Shown piece by piece: positions 3,323-39,011 of a stretch of DNA of 64,000 nt. Under the pieces are notes generated by a model, which saw only the letters and a program-made list of their open reading frames with translations, was not told the origin of the DNA and did not search any database. The DNA is taken from positions 372,001 through 436,000 of the forward strand of contig DATEMU010000012.1 in NCBI GenBank assembly GCA_035275405.1, read 5' to 3'. The position numbers were made by a program, and so were the translations under genes. Position 1 is the first letter of the stretch; each line of letters starts with the position of its first letter. This DNA comes from Phycisphaerae bacterium. Its GTDB lineage: Bacteria > Planctomycetota > Phycisphaerae > UBA1845 > UTPLA1.

Positions 3323-4531
3323 ATGCCGCGCGCTTGTCACATCGTTCCGATTACCGCCATTGTCCTTGCCGTATTGAACATCGGCGCCGGCATCCGCGCC
3401 GCGGATTGCACCGTTACGTCGGTCGGGTTCACGCCGCTGAACGATCTCGGCACGGGCCTTTACCTCGGGCTATTTCAGGGCGGGCTTTATCCCGGCGGCT
3501 CAAATCTCGTTCCTTCTGCACATGCGGCCGTGGGTCGCGCGCGAGCCCTGGCCATTCAGCCCATCGACGGCAAATACATTCTGCTCTCCATCGGCATGTC
3601 CAACACGACGCAGGAATTCTGTTCGCAGGGCGGCGGTCTGCCGTGCGATGCATGGACCTTTATGGGCCAGGCCGCCGTGAATCCGCGCGTGAACCACACG
3701 ACGCTGGCGATCATCAACGGCGCGCTCGGCGGCCAGGCGGCGGCCACGTGGGATTCGCCGACCGATCCGAATTACGACCGCGTGCGCGACAACGTGCTGG
3801 CGCCGGCCGGACTGACCGAATCGCAGGTGCAGGCGGTGTGGGTGAAGCTGGCTAATCCCCAGCCTTCAAGTTCACTGCCCAACGCCAACGCGGATGCCTA
3901 TATCCTGAAGGCTTCAACCGCGAACGCATTGCGGGCTTGCAAGACGCGCTACCCGAACTTGCAGATCGCGTTTGTGTCGAATCGCATCTACGCCGGATAC
4001 GCGGGCTATCCCGTGCCGCAAACGACGCTCAATCCGGAGCCCTATTCGTACGAGTCGGGGCTGGCGATGAAATGGCTGATCGAGGCGCAGATCAACCAGA
4101 TGGCCGGTGGGGCCGTCGATCCTGTCGCCGGCGATTTGAACTATGCAACGGTAGCGCCGTGGGTTGCGTGGGGACCCTATCTGTGGGCGGACGGGACGAC
4201 GCCGCGGAGCGACGGCCTCACTTATATATGCTCGGACTTACAGAGCGATGGGACGCACCCTGCCATGACCGGCGAACAGAAAGTCGGCGAGATGCTGATG
4301 GAGTTCATGCTGACCTCGCGGTCGGCGACGCCCTGGTTTCGGAGCTGTGAATTAGGTGATATGAATGAAGACGGACTCTTCGACGGCCGCGACGTGCCGC
4401 TTTTCGTGGAGACGCACCTTAATCCGCCGGGCGCGACGATGTACCAGCGATGCTCGGCCGATTGCGATGACAGCGGAACTCTTAGTGGGGCGGATGTGGG
4501 GGCGTTCGTAATGCGGCTATTGGAGGGTTAA
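3323..4531 (+). CDS. Secreted SGNH-hydrolase-like protein with dockerin-like C-terminus
   Basis: A 402-residue exported protein. Residues 1-26 are a signal peptide ending near AGIRA. Around residues 90-110 the segment YILLSIGMSNTTQEF looks like the first block of an SGNH/GDSL-type fold, where Ser follows a Gly-rich strand, and a late DGTHPAMTGEQ motif (about residue 315) resembles the block carrying catalytic Asp and His. The last 60 residues contain two Ca-binding loops, DMNEDGLFDGRD and DCDDSGTLSGAD, arranged as in dockerin type I modules found at the ends of planctomycete secreted proteins. The start is fixed by GGGGAGGAG just upstream. Enzymatic role and substrate are not evident; the hydrolase call is moderate, the dockerin-like module is clear. 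Confidence 0.7.
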   Translation: MPRACHIVPITAIVLAVLNIGAGIRAADCTVTSVGFTPLNDLGTGLYLGLFQGGLYPGGSNLVPSAHAAVGRARALAIQPIDGKYILLSIGMSNTTQEFCSQGGGLPCDAWTFMGQAAVNPRVNHTTLAIINGALGGQAAATWDSPTDPNYDRVRDNVLAPAGLTESQVQAVWVKLANPQPSSSLPNANADAYILKASTANALRACKTRYPNLQIAFVSNRIYAGYAGYPVPQTTLNPEPYSYESGLAMKWLIEAQINQMAGGAVDPVAGDLNYATVAPWVAWGPYLWADGTTPRSDGLTYICSDLQSDGTHPAMTGEQKVGEMLMEFMLTSRSATPWFRSCELGDMNEDGLFDGRDVPLFVETHLNPPGATMYQRCSADCDDSGTLSGADVGAFVMRLLEG

Positions 4532-15102: not shown

Positions 15103-17517
15103 TTACTCGACGGTGAAGTTTATCACAATATCTGGGCTGTGGACGCCTGCTTCGTTAACGCCCCGAATCATCAACGTCGCATTGGTGGTTGGGTACCAGT
15201 TGTAGACGCCCTCGCCCACGAACTCTAGCGCGATCGTCTCCCAGGTGTTCCCTCCGTCGAGGCTTGTTTCATAATGATCGAATCCCCCGGTTTTCGGATT
15301 CATGTTGTGGATGAACGTCAGTTGGACCTTATTGACGTCCTGGCGCTCAGCCGTGGCCTGAATGTTGTTAAGTGGGTATGTCAGATTCGTGTCGTCGTCG
15401 GCCACGACCGGAACGTTGAGCCAACCCCCGCCACACTCGGCGCTGACATCTTCATAGTCGTCGTACAAGAACGCAGATATAGAATCGCCTTGTGGCGGGA
15501 AGTGGTTCCACTTGTTTGCGGCAAAAGTATGATTGTACTCGAAGAGGTCTGTCTCCGCGGGAGGAGTCAGCAGTGTGTTTGACCACCAGGCTAAAGGGAT
15601 ATGCGGGAAGATCGGAGCCGTACAAATGGGATGTGGTTGAAAAACCAACCCCGATCCGTTGGCCGGTATCGCACGGTATCCGCGTCCTACGAAACCGGCC
15701 TCGTACGCTACAGTAATCGCATAATTCCCTGCGTCATGGTGAGCACGCATCTGCGCGATGCTCTGCGGGATTCCGTCGGCGCCCTCAATCCAGCGGTTGG
15801 CATGCGGGAAGAAAAGGACCCACTTGTTGAACCGGGTTGAGTACACTTCAACCATGACGTCGCCCCCGCAATTCACGTCATTTCCGCCGACACGCCGCGC
15901 CGGGATTCCATGTGCGACGCACATGCCGATGACGGCATATGCCAACGATCCGCAACTCCAATGGTGGCTGGCCAATCCCAAGGCGAAGTTCTCGCCGGGG
16001 GCAAAGCTTACCCAGGCTAGATTCGTCGGGGGTAAAGGGAAAGGTCCGCTCGGCTGTTCGCCGGTTCCGTTGATTTCGATTGTTGGTGGGTCGACGGAGC
16101 GACGGCCAATCGCATATTGGCACGTCGGATTGGACCAGATACGGAACGTGCTGACCGGAAACGTAATCGTCAGGGGAAGTCCCCAGGAGATTACGTTCGA
16201 ATGCGTGGCCAGCACAGCGTAACTTCGCCGGGCGTCCGCGGCGATCGCCAAGACGTTGTTGGTGATCGGCTGGCCTAGGAACGTCGACGGGACGTTACAT
16301 TGCCCATCATTGTTGGAACCCCAAGCGACCACCGAACCGTCATCGAGAATCGCGACGCAGTGATCGCTGCCTGCGGCAACCTGAGTGACGTGGGTTTGCC
16401 AAGCGCCGTTGAATGGCACAGTTGTCGACATGGAGCCCCACTGCACAACGGTTCCGTCGAACCTAAGGCCGATGCTAAAACTGGCCCCGGCGTCGAGGGC
16501 AATAAACCCGCTGTTCGGCGAAGGAACATTGCACTGCCCGACGCTATTGTCGCCCCAAGCCACGATCGATCCGTTAGCACTAAGCGCGAGGTTATGGTTC
16601 CCTCCCGCCGCGATTGCAATGAAATCCGCATTGGGCGTGGGTGCTGTGCCTTGGCCAAATTGATTACGCCCCCAGGCGACGATGACGCCCGTGATCCTCA
16701 GGGCCAAGCTGTGATGCTGACCGGCCTCTACCGCCATGAAGCCGGAATTCGGAACAATATCGTCGACGCCGCTGACGTTCCCGTAAAGATCATCGTCACC
16801 CCACCCGGTGATCGTTCCATCGTCGGCGAGGGTGTCTAGAATCAATTTTGCCCGTGGAGCCAGACTGAATTCGATATCCCGGCCATGCCAATGCAAACGG
16901 GACGACACGAACCGAACGATTGCCTGAATCATCTCCCACTCGCGGTCCTTCCAGTCCGCCTGCATGTCAATGCCCGCGAATATGTCGTGCTCGCTCGCAA
17001 AATCGCGCAGGTCGGGCAGGTCGCCTTCGTCGTACGCCTCCATCTCGTAGGGATAGGTCGGGTTACAGACGACGACGCCATTCTGAAGGATGGTGACATC
17101 CGGCGCATGCGTTCCTTGTAACAGGGCTTGCGAAAAGCCGAGGATGTCTCCGGGGTCGATTCCGCCATCGTCGTCAAAATCGGCGGCGCAAATCTCCGCC
17201 AAAGTCGTGAAGGGAGAAAACAAGATTGCTGTAAATCGTGCAATGTCCCGTCCATCACGGACGCCATCACCGGTGACATCGCCCGCAGAAACCGGGGGAC
17301 ATAGCTCACCACAGGTGCCGAATTGCCCCCCGTTGGTGATATCGCCGACCTCGCCGCCCGGGTCGTCAATCTGCGTCCCGACAAATCCCGTGGGCACGTC
17401 GGGTAAACGCGCATGCACGACGGTCGCCCCGCATGCGGCGCAAAGTGCGGCAACGAGGGCTGCAAACTGCGGGATTGCCCATCGGCGACTGACGGGTTGG
17501 GGATGGTGATTCTGCAT
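15103..17517 (-). CDS. Secreted dockerin/RCC1/transglutaminase-like protein
   Basis: An 804-residue exported protein with an unusual architecture. Residues 1-36 are a signal peptide. Residues 79-134 hold two Ca-binding loops (DVTGDGVRDGRD, DFDDDGGIDPGD) of the dockerin-like type. Residues 185-231 look like the first helices of a transglutaminase-like domain (REWEMIQAIVRFVSSRLHW). Residues 232-514 form about six RCC1-type propeller repeats (ITGWGDDD, VIVAWGRNQFGQ, SIVAWGDNSVGQ, SVVAWGSNNDGQ). Then HHWSCGSLAYAVIGMCVAHG (Cys522) and GIPARRVGG resume the transglutaminase core. The His expected before VEVY and the Asp expected after W are replaced, so only the Cys of the triad remains and activity is doubtful. 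The longer frame to 17712 would bury the signal peptide. A C-terminal Ig-like segment ends the protein. Confidence 0.75.
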   Translation of the reverse strand: MQNHHPQPVSRRWAIPQFAALVAALCAACGATVVHARLPDVPTGFVGTQIDDPGGEVGDITNGGQFGTCGELCPPVSAGDVTGDGVRDGRDIARFTAILFSPFTTLAEICAADFDDDGGIDPGDILGFSQALLQGTHAPDVTILQNGVVVCNPTYPYEMEAYDEGDLPDLRDFASEHDIFAGIDMQADWKDREWEMIQAIVRFVSSRLHWHGRDIEFSLAPRAKLILDTLADDGTITGWGDDDLYGNVSGVDDIVPNSGFMAVEAGQHHSLALRITGVIVAWGRNQFGQGTAPTPNADFIAIAAGGNHNLALSANGSIVAWGDNSVGQCNVPSPNSGFIALDAGASFSIGLRFDGTVVQWGSMSTTVPFNGAWQTHVTQVAAGSDHCVAILDDGSVVAWGSNNDGQCNVPSTFLGQPITNNVLAIAADARRSYAVLATHSNVISWGLPLTITFPVSTFRIWSNPTCQYAIGRRSVDPPTIEINGTGEQPSGPFPLPPTNLAWVSFAPGENFALGLASHHWSCGSLAYAVIGMCVAHGIPARRVGGNDVNCGGDVMVEVYSTRFNKWVLFFPHANRWIEGADGIPQSIAQMRAHHDAGNYAITVAYEAGFVGRGYRAIPANGSGLVFQPHPICTAPIFPHIPLAWWSNTLLTPPAETDLFEYNHTFAANKWNHFPPQGDSISAFLYDDYEDVSAECGGGWLNVPVVADDDTNLTYPLNNIQATAERQDVNKVQLTFIHNMNPKTGGFDHYETSLDGGNTWETIALEFVGEGVYNWYPTTNATLMIRGVNEAGVHSPDIVINFTVE

Positions 17518-17841: not shown

Positions 17842-18228
17842 ATGGCCTCCCAACCCCTTCAAACCGCTCTCGCCCTCGCCTTCCTCATCGTCGGCCTCTC
17901 GCACATCGTATGCGGCTGGCGCTGGAAGGCCTTCTTTGAACCGATCTTCAAAAACCCCTCCGGCCCGTTTGTCATCGCCCTCATGACGTTTCCGCTCGGG
18001 CTGCTCATCGTCGTCACACACAATCGCTGGGAGTGGGACTTGAGTGTGCTCGTAACGGTCTACGGATGGGCGGCTCTGATCAAAGGGGCGATCTACTTTC
18101 TTGTGCCCGGTCTGCCGCTGAAGTTCGTCACCGAGCGGATTCGCTCACCGCGCCACTTCGCCACCGCCGGTTGTATCCTGCTGGTCCTTGGCGCGCTCAT
18201 GGCCTACGACTGCGTCTACGCGGGCTGA
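17842..18228 (+). CDS. Small four-helix membrane protein
   Basis: 128 residues with four hydrophobic segments (about residues 7-25, 42-62, 68-92 and 108-126) and short loops, including CGWRWKAFFEPIF after the first helix. The ATG at 17842 follows AAAGGAAA at a good distance; an in-frame ATG at 17824 overlaps that site and is less likely. The gene lies 47 bases before kynurenine 3-monooxygenase on the same strand, so they may share a transcript, but nothing in the sequence ties it to tryptophan metabolism. Family not recognised. Confidence 0.65.
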   Translation: MASQPLQTALALAFLIVGLSHIVCGWRWKAFFEPIFKNPSGPFVIALMTFPLGLLIVVTHNRWEWDLSVLVTVYGWAALIKGAIYFLVPGLPLKFVTERIRSPRHFATAGCILLVLGALMAYDCVYAG

Positions 18229-18275
18229 GCGGGCAGTTGGCGGCGCGCGCTCGTTGCCGTCTAATACGCCTCGAC

Positions 18276-19613
18276 ATGCCCAACGGCGACGACACACGAT
18301 TCACCCTCATCGGCGGCGGTCTGGCCGGAGGGCTGTTGGCGACGTACTTGGGCCGCGCGGGCTATGCCGTAGATCTCTACGAGCGGAGGGCCGACCCCGG
18401 AGCGGGCAATTTCGTGGGCGGCCGGTCCATCAACCTCGCGGTCTCGACGCGGGGAATCGACGCGCTGGAGCGTGTGGGGTTGGCCGAAGAAGTGCTGAAG
18501 ACGGCGATCCCCATGCGCGGGCGCATGATCCATGGTCCGCGCGGCGATCTGCACTTTCAGCCCTACGACAAAGACCCGTCGCGATGCATTTATTCGATCG
18601 GGCGGGCAACGATCAACAGTGTGACCTTGACCGCCGCGCAGCGTCTGCCGAATGTGCGAGTGCTATTCAATCACCGCTGCACGGACGTAGACCTGGATCG
18701 CGGCGTCGCTCACATCCTGGATACGGCAACGAATCGGACGATCGAGACGGAGGACGGCGTCGTCATCGGCGTCGATGGGGCGTTTTCGGCTGTGCGGCGG
18801 GCCATGCAGCGGTTGGATCGATTCGATTATTCGCAGGACTACCTTCGCCACGGATATAAGGAACTGACCATCCCGCCGGGGGCGAGCGGTGAGTTTCAAA
18901 TGGAGAAAAATGCCCTCCACATTTGGCCGCGGCGGAGCTTTATGATGATCGCCCTGCCGAACCCAGATGGTTCGTTTACATGTACCCTCTTCTGGCAGTT
19001 TGAAGGGCCGGTGAGCTTCGCGAGAATCCGCGACGGCGACGACGTGCGGCGGTTCTTTGCGCGCGAATTTCCCGACGCGGTGCCCCTGATGCCCACGCTC
19101 GTGGAGGACTTCCAGGCCCATCCGACGGGTTCGATGGTGACCGTCCGCTGTCGGCCGTGGCACTACGGTGGCAAAGTAGCGATCGTCGGCGATGCGGCGC
19201 ACGCAGTCGTCCCATTCTACGGGCAGGGGATGAATGCTGCGTTCGAGGATTGCATCGTGCTGGACGAATGCCTGCGCCGGCACGCACCGAACTGGGAGCG
19301 GGCTTTCGGCGAATACGAGGCCGAGCGGAAGCCGAACGTGGACGCGCTGGCCGACCTGGCCGTTGAAAACTTTCGCGAGATGCGCGACAAGACGGCCTCG
19401 CGGGCGTTTCGCCTCAAGAAGAAGATCGAGCGGACGCTGCATCGCCTGCTGCCGGGCCGGTATACTCCCTTGTATACGATGGTGTCGTTCACGCGAACGC
19501 CCTACGCTGACGCGGTGCGGCGAGCGCGGCGGCAGGATCGCATTGTGTTGGTTGCTGCCTGGATCACGGTTGTTGTCGTGTTGGTCATGCTGGCGCTGGC
19601 CGTGAGTTTGTAG
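18276..19613 (+). CDS. kmo: Kynurenine 3-monooxygenase
   Basis: FAD- and NADPH-dependent hydroxylation of L-kynurenine to 3-hydroxykynurenine. 445 residues. The N-terminal dinucleotide-binding motif is LIGGGLAGGLLATYLGRAGY with the following YERR; the KMO-type block GRSINLAVSTRGIDALERVG (about 43-62) and IPMRGRMIH are diagnostic within the FAD hydroxylases. The second FAD motif is GDAAHAVVPFYGQGMNAAFED. The C-terminus carries a hydrophobic helix (about residues 420-442), as in KMO proteins that attach to membranes. ATG 18276 replaces a longer frame starting inside the previous gene. It is followed 70 bases later by tryptophan 2,3-dioxygenase, the first enzyme of the same pathway, which supports the call. 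Kynureninase and 3-hydroxyanthranilate dioxygenase are not in the window. Confidence 0.93.
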   Translation: MPNGDDTRFTLIGGGLAGGLLATYLGRAGYAVDLYERRADPGAGNFVGGRSINLAVSTRGIDALERVGLAEEVLKTAIPMRGRMIHGPRGDLHFQPYDKDPSRCIYSIGRATINSVTLTAAQRLPNVRVLFNHRCTDVDLDRGVAHILDTATNRTIETEDGVVIGVDGAFSAVRRAMQRLDRFDYSQDYLRHGYKELTIPPGASGEFQMEKNALHIWPRRSFMMIALPNPDGSFTCTLFWQFEGPVSFARIRDGDDVRRFFAREFPDAVPLMPTLVEDFQAHPTGSMVTVRCRPWHYGGKVAIVGDAAHAVVPFYGQGMNAAFEDCIVLDECLRRHAPNWERAFGEYEAERKPNVDALADLAVENFREMRDKTASRAFRLKKKIERTLHRLLPGRYTPLYTMVSFTRTPYADAVRRARRQDRIVLVAAWITVVVVLVMLALAVSL

Positions 19614-19630
19614 GGCGGGCTCTGCCCGCC
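19614..19630 (+). repeat. GC-rich hairpin after kmo
   Basis: GGCGGGC/GCCCGCC around TCT, beginning directly after the kmo stop codon, with further GC-rich repeat-like bases to about 19660. No T run follows, so it is not a standard terminator. Confidence 0.5.
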
Positions 19631-19683
19631 GCGGACGCGCGCAGAGCCCTGGCGGGCCGAGCCCGACGCACGAGGAGTCGTCC

Positions 19684-20466
19684 ATGTCCCTGACCTATTC
19701 GAGTTATCTTCATCTCGACGACCTCCTTGGTTTACAGGAGCCGCGCTCCCGCCCGCCCGAGCACGACGAGATGCTGTTTATCGTCATTCACCAGGTCTAT
19801 GAGCTGTGGTTCAAGCTACTTCTGCACGAAGTCGAGAAGATCAACCGCGACTTCACGGGCAACGACCTGTACGGCGCGATTCACACGTTCAAGCGGGCCC
19901 GGACGGTCATGAAGACGCTGGTGGGGCAGCTCGACATCCTGGAGACGATGACGCCGATGTCGTTTTCGAGTTTTCGGGATCGGCTGGAAACGGCGTCGGG
20001 TTTCCAATCGACGCAGTTCCGAGAGCTGGAGTTCGCCCTCGGCTTCAAGCGGCCCGCAACGCTGAAATTCGTCGATCCGCAATCGCCGGCGTTGGCGACC
20101 CTTCAACGCCGGCTCGCCGACACCAGCGTGGTGGATCACTTTTACGACTTTCTGGGGCAGCGCGGTGTTACGATTCCGCCGTCATTGCGTGGCGGCGACC
20201 GGACACAGCCGACCCAGGCCAACGAACAAGTTCAGGAAGGACTCCTGGCGCTCTATCTAAAGCACCCGGAGTTGGCGATCCTCTTCGAACTCATGACGGA
20301 TTTTGACGAAGGCCTGCAGGAATGGCGCTACCGCCATGTGAAGCTCGTCGAGCGGACGATCGGCAGCAAACATGGGACGGGCGGTTCGCCGGGCGTACCG
20401 TTCTTGAAGGAATCGCTCTTCAAGCCGATCTTCCCCGACCTGTGGGCGATTCGGCACCGGATATAA
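19684..20466 (+). CDS. kynA: Tryptophan 2,3-dioxygenase
   Basis: Heme enzyme that opens the indole ring of L-tryptophan to N-formylkynurenine. 260 residues, near the usual bacterial length. LFIVIHQVYELWFKLLLHE (31-49) contains the active-site His36; the FREL.FALGF block at 112-121 and RYRHVKLVERTIG (215-227), with proximal heme ligand His218, follow; KHGTGGSPGVPFL near the end binds the substrate carboxylate. Start codon follows GAGGAG. Together with kmo immediately upstream it makes half of a kynurenine route toward quinolinate/NAD or tryptophan degradation. It converges with the SDR gene, with seven bases between stops. Confidence 0.95.
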   Translation: MSLTYSSYLHLDDLLGLQEPRSRPPEHDEMLFIVIHQVYELWFKLLLHEVEKINRDFTGNDLYGAIHTFKRARTVMKTLVGQLDILETMTPMSFSSFRDRLETASGFQSTQFRELEFALGFKRPATLKFVDPQSPALATLQRRLADTSVVDHFYDFLGQRGVTIPPSLRGGDRTQPTQANEQVQEGLLALYLKHPELAILFELMTDFDEGLQEWRYRHVKLVERTIGSKHGTGGSPGVPFLKESLFKPIFPDLWAIRHRI

Positions 20467-36083: not shown

Positions 36084-39011
36084 ATGACCAATAGCGCATT
36101 AGCACGTCGTCGGTGGATCATCGCCCTCAGCGGCGTGATCTGCAATTCAATGTGCCGCGTTTCGGATGCCGAGCCCCTCCGCTTCGGCTTCCTATGGCAC
36201 ATGCACCAGCCGGTTTATTACCCCTACGAGTCCATCACGCAGACGCAGGCCAACGGGCGGTACACCTTCAACGTCATCGACATCCACAACCAGCGGTTTG
36301 GGCCGTACTCGACGTGGCCGCGCGACGCCGTCCAAGCCGGCGCCGGTTTGCCTCACCTCGGCGCATCGGTGAGCTTCAGCGGCTCGCTCATCGAGAATCT
36401 CAACGCCCTGGCCGCGGCAGGCGTCAACGGCGGGATGTGGACGAACTGGTTCAACGGCTATCGCCAGGGCATTGCGCTGGCGACCACGCTGGGCAACCCG
36501 CGGCTGGATTTGGTCGCGTTCGGCTATCACCACCCGCTCCTTTCTCTGCTCGACGTGCAGGACATGCGGATGCAGATCAAGCTGCACAAGCACGTGTATG
36601 GACAGGCGTGGGCGGGGGGACCGGCGTACAGTGCAGGCATGTTCCCTCCGGAGACGGCGTTCTCCACGCGGATCATCCCGGCGCTCGTCGCCGAGGGTGT
36701 CGAGTGGGTGCTCGTCGACAACATCCATTTCGATCGGGCGTGCGCCGGATACCCGCACACCAACGCGTCATGTATTTACGCGCCGAACGCGGCGGATCAG
36801 ATCAACCCGGATCCGGCGACGACCGGTGGGGCGTGGGTGCAGCTCAACAACCTCTGGGCGCCCAGCCAGGTCAGCGCGCCGTTCGGCTATCAGCCGCATC
36901 TCGCGGAGTATGTCGATCCCTCGACGGGAGAGATCGCGCAGATCATTGCCGTGCCGGCGGCGCGCTACGAGGGCAACGAGGACGGCCGCGGCGGCTACGG
37001 GGCGTTTCTCTACGATCAGGTGATGGATGCGTATCTCGCGTACAACAACGACCCGGCCCACCCGATGTTTGTCGTGCTGCACCACGATGGTGACAACTAC
37101 GGCGGCGGGACGGACGCATATTATCACAGCAATTTTCAGAACATGATCTCGTGGGTGACCAGCGATCCGGACTACGAGGCCACAACGGTGCAGGACTATC
37201 TCGATCGCTTCCCGGTCGCGGCGGGCGACGTGATCCACATTGAAAACGGCGCCTGGGCAGGGGCGGATTGCGGCGACCCGGAGTTCAAAAAGTGGCTGGG
37301 CGATCCGAACGGGAGCGGCTGGAGCCCGGATCGCAACAGTTGGGCCGTTTTGACCGCGGCGAAGAACCGCGTGTTCATGGCGGAGGCGATCGCGCCGGCG
37401 GTGAGCATGCAAAACGTCATGACCGGCGGCGGGACGAATACGGAGAAGGCCTGGCACTATCTGCTTTGCTCCGAAGCGAGCGACTATTGGTACTGGGATA
37501 GCAGCGGCGAACCGTGGGACAGCAACGTGACGCGCGGATGCAATCAGGCTGTGTCTTTTGCGGATTCGGTGATCGCCGGGCAGACGGACACGACGCCGCC
37601 GACGGTCTTCGTTCCGCAGCGCGAGCCCTACAACCCCGGCGGTATCGAATGGGGTCCGTCGGTGGAGCCTTCGGATTTCGAGGTATGGACCTACGCCGAC
37701 GACGTGAGCGGTTTGACGAGTGTTACGTTGAAATGGCGAGTCGATGGCGACGGCCTCAATCCGATCGCCTCGATTCAGAACGAAACCTATGCGGGCGGGC
37801 CGGAGGTCGGGGTGTGGAATAGCGCGGCCATGAGCGTGACACCGCCGCCGACGGTGCCGGCGAATATTCTTGCCGCCACGTATCGAGCGTCGCGTTACGC
37901 GGCGATGATCACGGGGCAGCAGGACGTGCTGATCGATTATTACGTCGAGACGCTGGACGGCGCGGGGAACCTGGCGCGGACCGACATTCAGCATGTTTAT
38001 GTCGGAACGACGGCGACCGGCGGCGGCGACGTGGTCGAGGTCGCCCCCGATCCGCCACTGGCGGGGCAGAATGTCACGGTGCGTTACGACCCCGCGGGAC
38101 GGCCGCTCGCCGGGGCCGGGACGGTCAAGATGCATTATGGGTTCAATACCTGGAACCCCGTCATCTCACCGGATCCGACCATGACATGGAATGCGGGGAT
38201 TTCGCGCTGGGAGATGACCGTTGCCGTGCTGGGCAGTGCGACGCAGCTCGATGTGGTCTTCAACAACGGCGCGGGGACCTGGGACAACAATGGCGGGCAG
38301 GATTGGCACTTTGCCGTGCAGGGCGGCGCGCCGGAACTCGGGTGGACGATGGACGGGCAGCGCGATGCCGACGCCAGTCTCGTCGCACAGAACGGCGCGA
38401 TGTCGCTTTACGCCGGCGTGCGCGGCACGAAGTTGTATGTCGCCGCGCCGGATGCGGGCGAGGGCAACGATCATTTCATCCTCGTCGCGGCCGTGCCGGG
38501 CGCACTGCGGGCGGCGCCGTGGGCCAAGGCTGGTCAGGTCGCGGATTGGAGCGCGTTCCTGGCGGACGAGAACAACAACGACTACGAAGGCTGGTTCGAT
38601 CAGGGCGCGGGTGTGCCGGTGCAAGCCATGACCGGGGCGAACGGAGGCTATCTCGAAGGGACGATCGATCTGGCGGCCGAGTTGGGCGCGATGCCGGATC
38701 AGGTGTACCTCGCATTCTTGCCATATACGAACAACGACGGCGGTACGCTCGTGTCGGGGAGCCAGGTACCGGCCTCGATCAACGCCAATGGAACCGTCGA
38801 GGCCGGTGAGTACGTCTTGTTTCAGACGTACTTGCGCGGCGACCTCAACGCCGACTGGAGCGTCGATCTGCTTGACGTGTCGGGCTTCGTTGAGGTCTTG
38901 CTGGGCAACGACATTGATACGGCACATTTCCGGGCGGCGGACATGGACGGCGGGGGAGAAGCTAACGGCGCGGACATCGCGGCGTTCGCGGCGACTATCA
39001 TGGCCCCGTAG
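36084..39011 (+). CDS. GH57 glycoside hydrolase with starch-binding and dockerin-like domains
   Basis: 975 residues, secreted (N-terminal signal, residues 1-29). The GH57 hallmark HMHQP is at 39-43, the family fold continues with GGMWTNWFNGYRQG and FGYHHPLL, and MFPPETAF holds Glu190, the likely nucleophile; the acid is probably the Asp in LHHDGDNYGGG. GH57 enzymes act on alpha-glucans (amylopullulanase and alpha-amylase types). Residues about 500-640 are an Ig-like segment (TTPPTVFVPQREPYNPGG); about 655-755 resemble a CBM25/53 starch-binding domain (VTVRYDPAGRPLAG, MHYGFNTWN, DVVFNNGAGTWDNNGGQDW). About 760-910 is a DOMON/CBM9-like region. The last 60 residues carry two dockerin-like Ca loops (DLNADWSVDLLD and DMDGGGEANGAD). 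A maltogenic or pullulan-degrading role outside the cell is likely. Confidence 0.85.
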   Translation: MTNSALARRRWIIALSGVICNSMCRVSDAEPLRFGFLWHMHQPVYYPYESITQTQANGRYTFNVIDIHNQRFGPYSTWPRDAVQAGAGLPHLGASVSFSGSLIENLNALAAAGVNGGMWTNWFNGYRQGIALATTLGNPRLDLVAFGYHHPLLSLLDVQDMRMQIKLHKHVYGQAWAGGPAYSAGMFPPETAFSTRIIPALVAEGVEWVLVDNIHFDRACAGYPHTNASCIYAPNAADQINPDPATTGGAWVQLNNLWAPSQVSAPFGYQPHLAEYVDPSTGEIAQIIAVPAARYEGNEDGRGGYGAFLYDQVMDAYLAYNNDPAHPMFVVLHHDGDNYGGGTDAYYHSNFQNMISWVTSDPDYEATTVQDYLDRFPVAAGDVIHIENGAWAGADCGDPEFKKWLGDPNGSGWSPDRNSWAVLTAAKNRVFMAEAIAPAVSMQNVMTGGGTNTEKAWHYLLCSEASDYWYWDSSGEPWDSNVTRGCNQAVSFADSVIAGQTDTTPPTVFVPQREPYNPGGIEWGPSVEPSDFEVWTYADDVSGLTSVTLKWRVDGDGLNPIASIQNETYAGGPEVGVWNSAAMSVTPPPTVPANILAATYRASRYAAMITGQQDVLIDYYVETLDGAGNLARTDIQHVYVGTTATGGGDVVEVAPDPPLAGQNVTVRYDPAGRPLAGAGTVKMHYGFNTWNPVISPDPTMTWNAGISRWEMTVAVLGSATQLDVVFNNGAGTWDNNGGQDWHFAVQGGAPELGWTMDGQRDADASLVAQNGAMSLYAGVRGTKLYVAAPDAGEGNDHFILVAAVPGALRAAPWAKAGQVADWSAFLADENNNDYEGWFDQGAGVPVQAMTGANGGYLEGTIDLAAELGAMPDQVYLAFLPYTNNDGGTLVSGSQVPASINANGTVEAGEYVLFQTYLRGDLNADWSVDLLDVSGFVEVLLGNDIDTAHFRAADMDGGGEANGADIAAFAATIMAP

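Follow-up and report, generated by a model that had tools for sequence, protein, structure and literature searches.

How a transglutaminase-like (TG) domain might accommodate an entire repeat propeller a few residues ahead of its catalytic cysteine is the question raised by one gene in the 64,000-nucleotide stretch of a Phycisphaerae genome analysed here (assembly GCA_035275405.1, contig DATEMU010000012.1, positions 372,001 to 436,000; hereafter the window). The product of this gene, P0001, was read in an initial annotation of the DNA letters as a TG-like domain (residues 185-231 and the helix carrying Cys522) split by about 280 residues of RCC1 repeats and preceded by a dockerin-like module. 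Of the catalytic triad only the Cys was thought to be kept, with the His before VEVY and the following Asp replaced. Here we describe the domain order of P0001, the evidence that its flanks belong together, the properties of the insert, the fate of the catalytic residues, and the distribution of the family among related bacteria.

The P0001 gene and its flanking modules

The P0001 open reading frame comprises 804 codons on the minus strand and starts with MQNHHPQP (Table 1). The ORF listing takes an upstream TTG start, which gives a protein of 869 aa; the ATG at 17517 was chosen as the probable start because it gives an ordinary signal peptide. The frame contains no internal stops, and its GC content is alike across all parts. 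The gene is flanked by genes for an ABC-F type ATPase and for the kynurenine pathway, which lie on the other strand. No operon link was found at the P0001 locus, and neither an operon nor a shared neighbour there hints at a role for the protein. Within the flanking region, an FAD monooxygenase gene adjoins that of tryptophan 2,3-dioxygenase (window 18033-20466), likely a kynurenine pathway pair.

The dockerin-like module ahead of the TG part is real, although it scores only 16.9 bits with Pfam Dockerin_1 (cutoff 22.9). Residues 61-136 of P0001 are 54% identical to a site elsewhere in this genome (E 2.5e-18). Because the module is one of ~43 dockerin matches in this genome, and because the genome (96% complete) contains no match to cohesin (PF00963), it does not point to a cellulosome. 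Other dockerin-like modules occur in the window at 38838-38984 and 4352-4531, at the ends of ORFs of 975 and 402 aa, respectively.

Table 1. Features of the P0001 gene, with positions given in the window.
Feature	Position	Strand	Basis
Gene for secreted protein P0001 (804 aa)	15103..17517	-	ATG at 17517, stop at 15103-15105; ORF and translation
Putative signal peptide, aa 1-37 (WAIPQFAALVAALCAACGATVVHA)	17407..17517	-	Read by eye from the sequence
Dockerin-like module, aa 78-133, two D-x-[DN]-x-D-G type loops	17119..17286	-	Pfam Dockerin_1, below cutoff
TG N-terminal half, aa 141-231 (DWKDREWEM and RAKLILDTL helices)	16825..17097	-	Propeller-free profile
Inserted RCC1/BLIP-II-type propeller, aa 232-515	15973..16824	-	RCC1_2, BLIP-II, half-blade closure, G001 blades
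TG C-terminal half, aa 516-600 (Cys helix, beta hairpin)	15718..15972	-	Propeller-free profile
Cys522, catalytic cysteine position	15952..15954	-	Alignments; kept in 5/5 members
Asp553, at catalytic His position	15859..15861	-	Alignments; Asp in 5/5 members, His in L136
Phe570, at catalytic Asp position	15808..15810	-	Alignments; Phe/Cys/Trp in members, Asp in L136
FN3-like beta-sandwich, C-terminal, aa ~714-802	15112..15378	-	Fold search of G012 homologue model

The split transglutaminase-like domain

Three natural homologues of P0001 (G012, G015 and G002, with ORFs of 458-499 aa) lack the propeller and contain both flanks as one unbroken stretch. A profile built from these three proteins only (A1) matches P0001 in exactly two blocks, which meet at the insert: A1 positions 2-105 match P0001 residues 141-240 (E 3.2e-24), and positions 101-371 match residues 517-800 (E 1.8e-43). 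When searched against Transglut_core (PF01841), intact P0001 gives 17.7 bits over family positions 53-105 only, below the cutoff of 23. Removal of the insert and joining of the two halves raises the score past this cutoff, to 24.2 bits, and the match then covers positions 15-105. The propeller-free homologues themselves score 21.2-28.4 bits, with G012 (28.4 bits) the only one to exceed the cutoff. The matches of two of them span positions 11-104, and that of the third spans 53-105.

The two-block match and the joined-halves match together place the insert between the helix RAKLILDTL and the segment ASHHWSCG, six residues before Cys522. Invariant motifs of the propeller-free forms are kept in both halves of P0001. 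Judged by these profile comparisons, the flanks of P0001 are one TG-like domain split by a propeller, in agreement with the initial annotation. The domain shares with Transglut_core the helix order, the Cys helix, the GIPAR strand and an HxxxEVY-type hairpin, and differs from it in being split by 284 residues and in the replacement of the triad His and Asp.

The inserted RCC1 propeller

The insert in P0001 matches RCC1_2 (PF13540) with 107.5 bits (cutoff 22), and its closest solved relative is BLIP-II (E 1.5e-39). Six consecutive RCC1 units are readable. Ahead of them, DGTITGWG corresponds to the latter half of a unit, and behind them NLAWVSFAPGENFALGL corresponds to the first half, so that the first half-blade (residues 231-242) and the last (residues 495-515) would make up a seventh blade. 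Closure of the ring was assessed by joining the last half to the first and scoring the product with an HMM of 70 RCC1 units from related genomes. The joined halves score 22.3 bits (4.4 and 12.2 bits alone), and the maximum among controls with one half shuffled (n=400) is 16.0 bits.

An orthologue from another genus, G001 (L030:1905-5156, 1083 aa), has the same domain order as P0001 and is 52% identical to it over residues 75-479. Each of the six P0001 blades finds its best match in the same-position blade of G001. The G001 ring is itself interrupted, after the sixth blade and before the closing half-blade, by a Kelch propeller (PF24681, 73.2 bits), making this a three-level nested protein. At the sequence level, ring closure is clear for P0001 and tentative for G001, whose joined half-blades score 14.0 bits, inside the range of the P0001 controls.

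By its repeat pattern, the P0001 insert looks like a complete seven-bladed propeller. As the first and last half-blades would form one blade, both ends of the insert would, from the architecture of propellers, exit at one place. The insert resembles BLIP-II/RCC1 propellers in repeat sequence, in its seven blades by count and in secretion. Unlike free-standing BLIP-II, it is inserted in another domain, and its blades 5 and 6 are degenerate. RCC1_2 repeats in this genome are confined to the P0001 gene, and Kelch repeats are abundant.

Fate of the catalytic triad

Cys522 is conserved in all five family members (P0001, G001 and the three propeller-free homologues) and is invariant together with Trp520 and Gly523. 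The register of the other two triad positions was settled by L136 (genome G146), a remote homologue detected in a class-wide search (E 0.001), which is a contiguous TG protein with Cys-His-Asp intact and a Transglut_core score of 61.5 bits. The L136 segment GHEVAEVWSNQFNRWIMMDP was aligned to GDVMVEVYSTRFNKWVLFFP of P0001, and likewise to the remaining members, by way of the shared motif S..[FYW]N[RK]W. L136 further shares PLG..E[IM] with the family and resembles it at the C-terminal end; in contrast to P0001, its TG domain is uninterrupted, its triad is complete and it carries no propeller.

In this register, the triad His is replaced by Asp in all five members (Asp553 in P0001), and the triad Asp by Phe570 in P0001 and by Phe, Cys or Trp in the others, which upholds the earlier reading that Cys alone is retained. 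An alternative register, with the His at Asn564, arose because Pfam and hhalign alternate between members, and was dropped once L136 had fixed the first. The propeller-free members have lost the triad too, so its loss can be explained without the insertion. Since the loss is common to all five members and contiguous triad-bearing TGs serve as outgroup, it is best placed before the insertion.

A 409-aa ORF from the same class (L135, genome G712) also encodes a degenerate TG-like protein, in which the segment aligned with the start of the Cys helix is GSRADLTCV and lacks the expected Cys.

Proposed function and alternative readings

We consider P0001 to be probably a secreted pseudoenzyme, in which a dead TG/papain-like fold holds the seven-bladed propeller as an extracellular ligand-binding head. 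The core fold would have lost the triad His and Asp while retaining the Cys, and a whole RCC1/BLIP-II-type propeller would have entered the loop that connects the last helix of the N-terminal half to the Cys helix. There it would close on itself, its first and last half-blades making one blade. As the propeller ends would leave at the same place, the host domain could still fold around a short double linker, with its two halves packed together. The domain would most likely be non-catalytic and would serve extracellularly to carry one propeller or two, with the dockerin-like and FN3-like modules as putative spacers or anchors. This accords with the initial annotation, which suggested either an unusual platform for binding or regulation or a remnant of the fold. 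An old enzyme fold has apparently been reused as a mount for binding modules, as the propeller-free relatives have lost the same catalytic residues.

BLIP-II is a secreted binder (PMC9218822), and the P0001 propeller may likewise bind a ligand. Rad4/XPC, EPB42 and FBXO21 are described, in the sections of PMC10318531 and PMC4713717 drawn on here, as TG folds that have lost catalysis and now act in binding or as scaffolds. These proteins are eukaryotic, whereas P0001 is a secreted bacterial protein, and the same sections mention no propeller before the Cys helix in any of them.

For a site that is entirely dead, the invariance of both Cys522 and the Asp in place of the His is unusual, and some altered chemistry may persist. 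The main rival to the pseudoenzyme reading is that Cys522 works with Asp553, as in the Streptomyces microbial transglutaminase, and that the propeller selects or gates the substrate. According to the part of PMC10318531 that treats it, the Streptomyces enzyme uses Cys-Asp-His and cannot do without the Asp that stands where the His would be. The presence of Asp at this position in 5/5 members and the invariance of Trp520, Cys522 and Gly523 fit such a site. However, the third-position His of the Streptomyces enzyme is Phe, Cys or Trp here with no conserved His in its place, the conserved His536 lies at the end of the Cys helix, and the scans made gave no sequence relation between the two proteins. 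We regard an active Cys-Asp site as unlikely.

Cys522 could also have been conserved for structural reasons: it would pair with a second Cys, located on the strand that once bore the His, and the resulting disulfide would stabilise the dead fold under the oxidising conditions outside the cell. The five cysteines common to P0001 and G001 are at positions 522, 533, 550, 632 and 695, and in all members another Cys lies no more than three residues from the Asp553 position. The signal peptide suggests that the protein is exported, as this reading would have it. The second Cys nevertheless occupies different columns in the two groups, being Cys550 in the long members and, in the short ones, the second residue past the Asp, and no reliable model gives the Cys-Cys distance. 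A disulfide is also one of the less likely accounts of Cys522.

A bolder and rather unlikely proposal is that the catalytic mouth of the TG fold has turned into a docking loop for propellers (RCC1, then the nested Kelch), with the invariant Cys-Asp pair performing an altered chemistry under propeller control.

Under the pseudoenzyme reading the two halves would fold into one domain; alternatively, the TG part might merely be a spacer, its halves independent stalk pieces that have been unpacked since the insertion. The AlphaFold models, which are of low confidence and lack a packed domain, could be taken in this sense. The model of P0001 (5-row alignment) has a mean pLDDT of 39.8 and that of a propeller-free homologue (4-row alignment) 45.5, both too low to show the fold. 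The P0001 model excludes the RCC1 region, as the RCC1 rows were left out of the alignment, where MAFFT had misplaced the homologue halves. Both models contain the Cys helix followed by a strand and hairpin at VMVEVY/KWVLF in the expected order, at pLDDT ~50-60. The retention in both halves of motifs invariant in the propeller-free forms, and the complementary ends of the insert, which would let the host domain close, make the spacer reading quite improbable.

A fold search of the G012 model gave matches to the FN3-like end only (FN3 domains at model residues 281-374, best Z 8.2), with no TG among the rows, and is uninformative on the TG part. The family profile, run against solved structures, retrieved no TG.

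Distribution and history of the family

The family is present in five genomes, belonging to three genera of one taxonomic family, among the genomes searched, which comprised 150 relatives, 114 genomes of the order, and samples drawn from the class (397 genomes) and the phylum (392 genomes). A scan of a genome-contig collection gave G012 and G015 as the only matches, and viral, plasmid and phage collections contained no relative. Among the homologues surveyed, the insertion is shared by one orthologue (G001) and absent in three. In a tree of the non-insert columns, the two long proteins are separated from the three short ones with support of 100. As G001 is found in the same genus as two of the short-form genomes, the history of the gene is not that of the species. 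The insertion probably represents the derived state, given that contiguity is general among Transglut_core proteins.

On the evidence of its blades and junctions, the insert is inherited in two genera. Its occurrence in only two sampled genomes might raise the suspicion that there is no true insertion but an artefact of assembly, a fortuitous fusion of genes or a gene in decay. This is exceedingly improbable and was rejected: G001, from another genus and an independent assembly, shares both junctions and is 52% identical to P0001 through the insert, and the P0001 frame is open, stop-free and of similar GC throughout.

A literature search for a propeller-in-TG architecture found no paper. To our knowledge, there are few natural cases of an enzyme fold that carries a complete repeat ring beside its nucleophile and for which propeller-free relatives are at hand. 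Here, forms with an intact triad, with a lost triad and no propeller, with one propeller and with two propellers stand side by side, so that the order of events can be read. With them it becomes possible to test whether binding modules are readily accepted at the site of a dead enzyme. A propeller in a TG-like domain is in itself a real oddity, not a revolutionary one.

At the G001 locus, a DDE transposase gene (DDE_Tnp_1_4, 572 bits; L030:430-1773) lies directly upstream of the orthologue.
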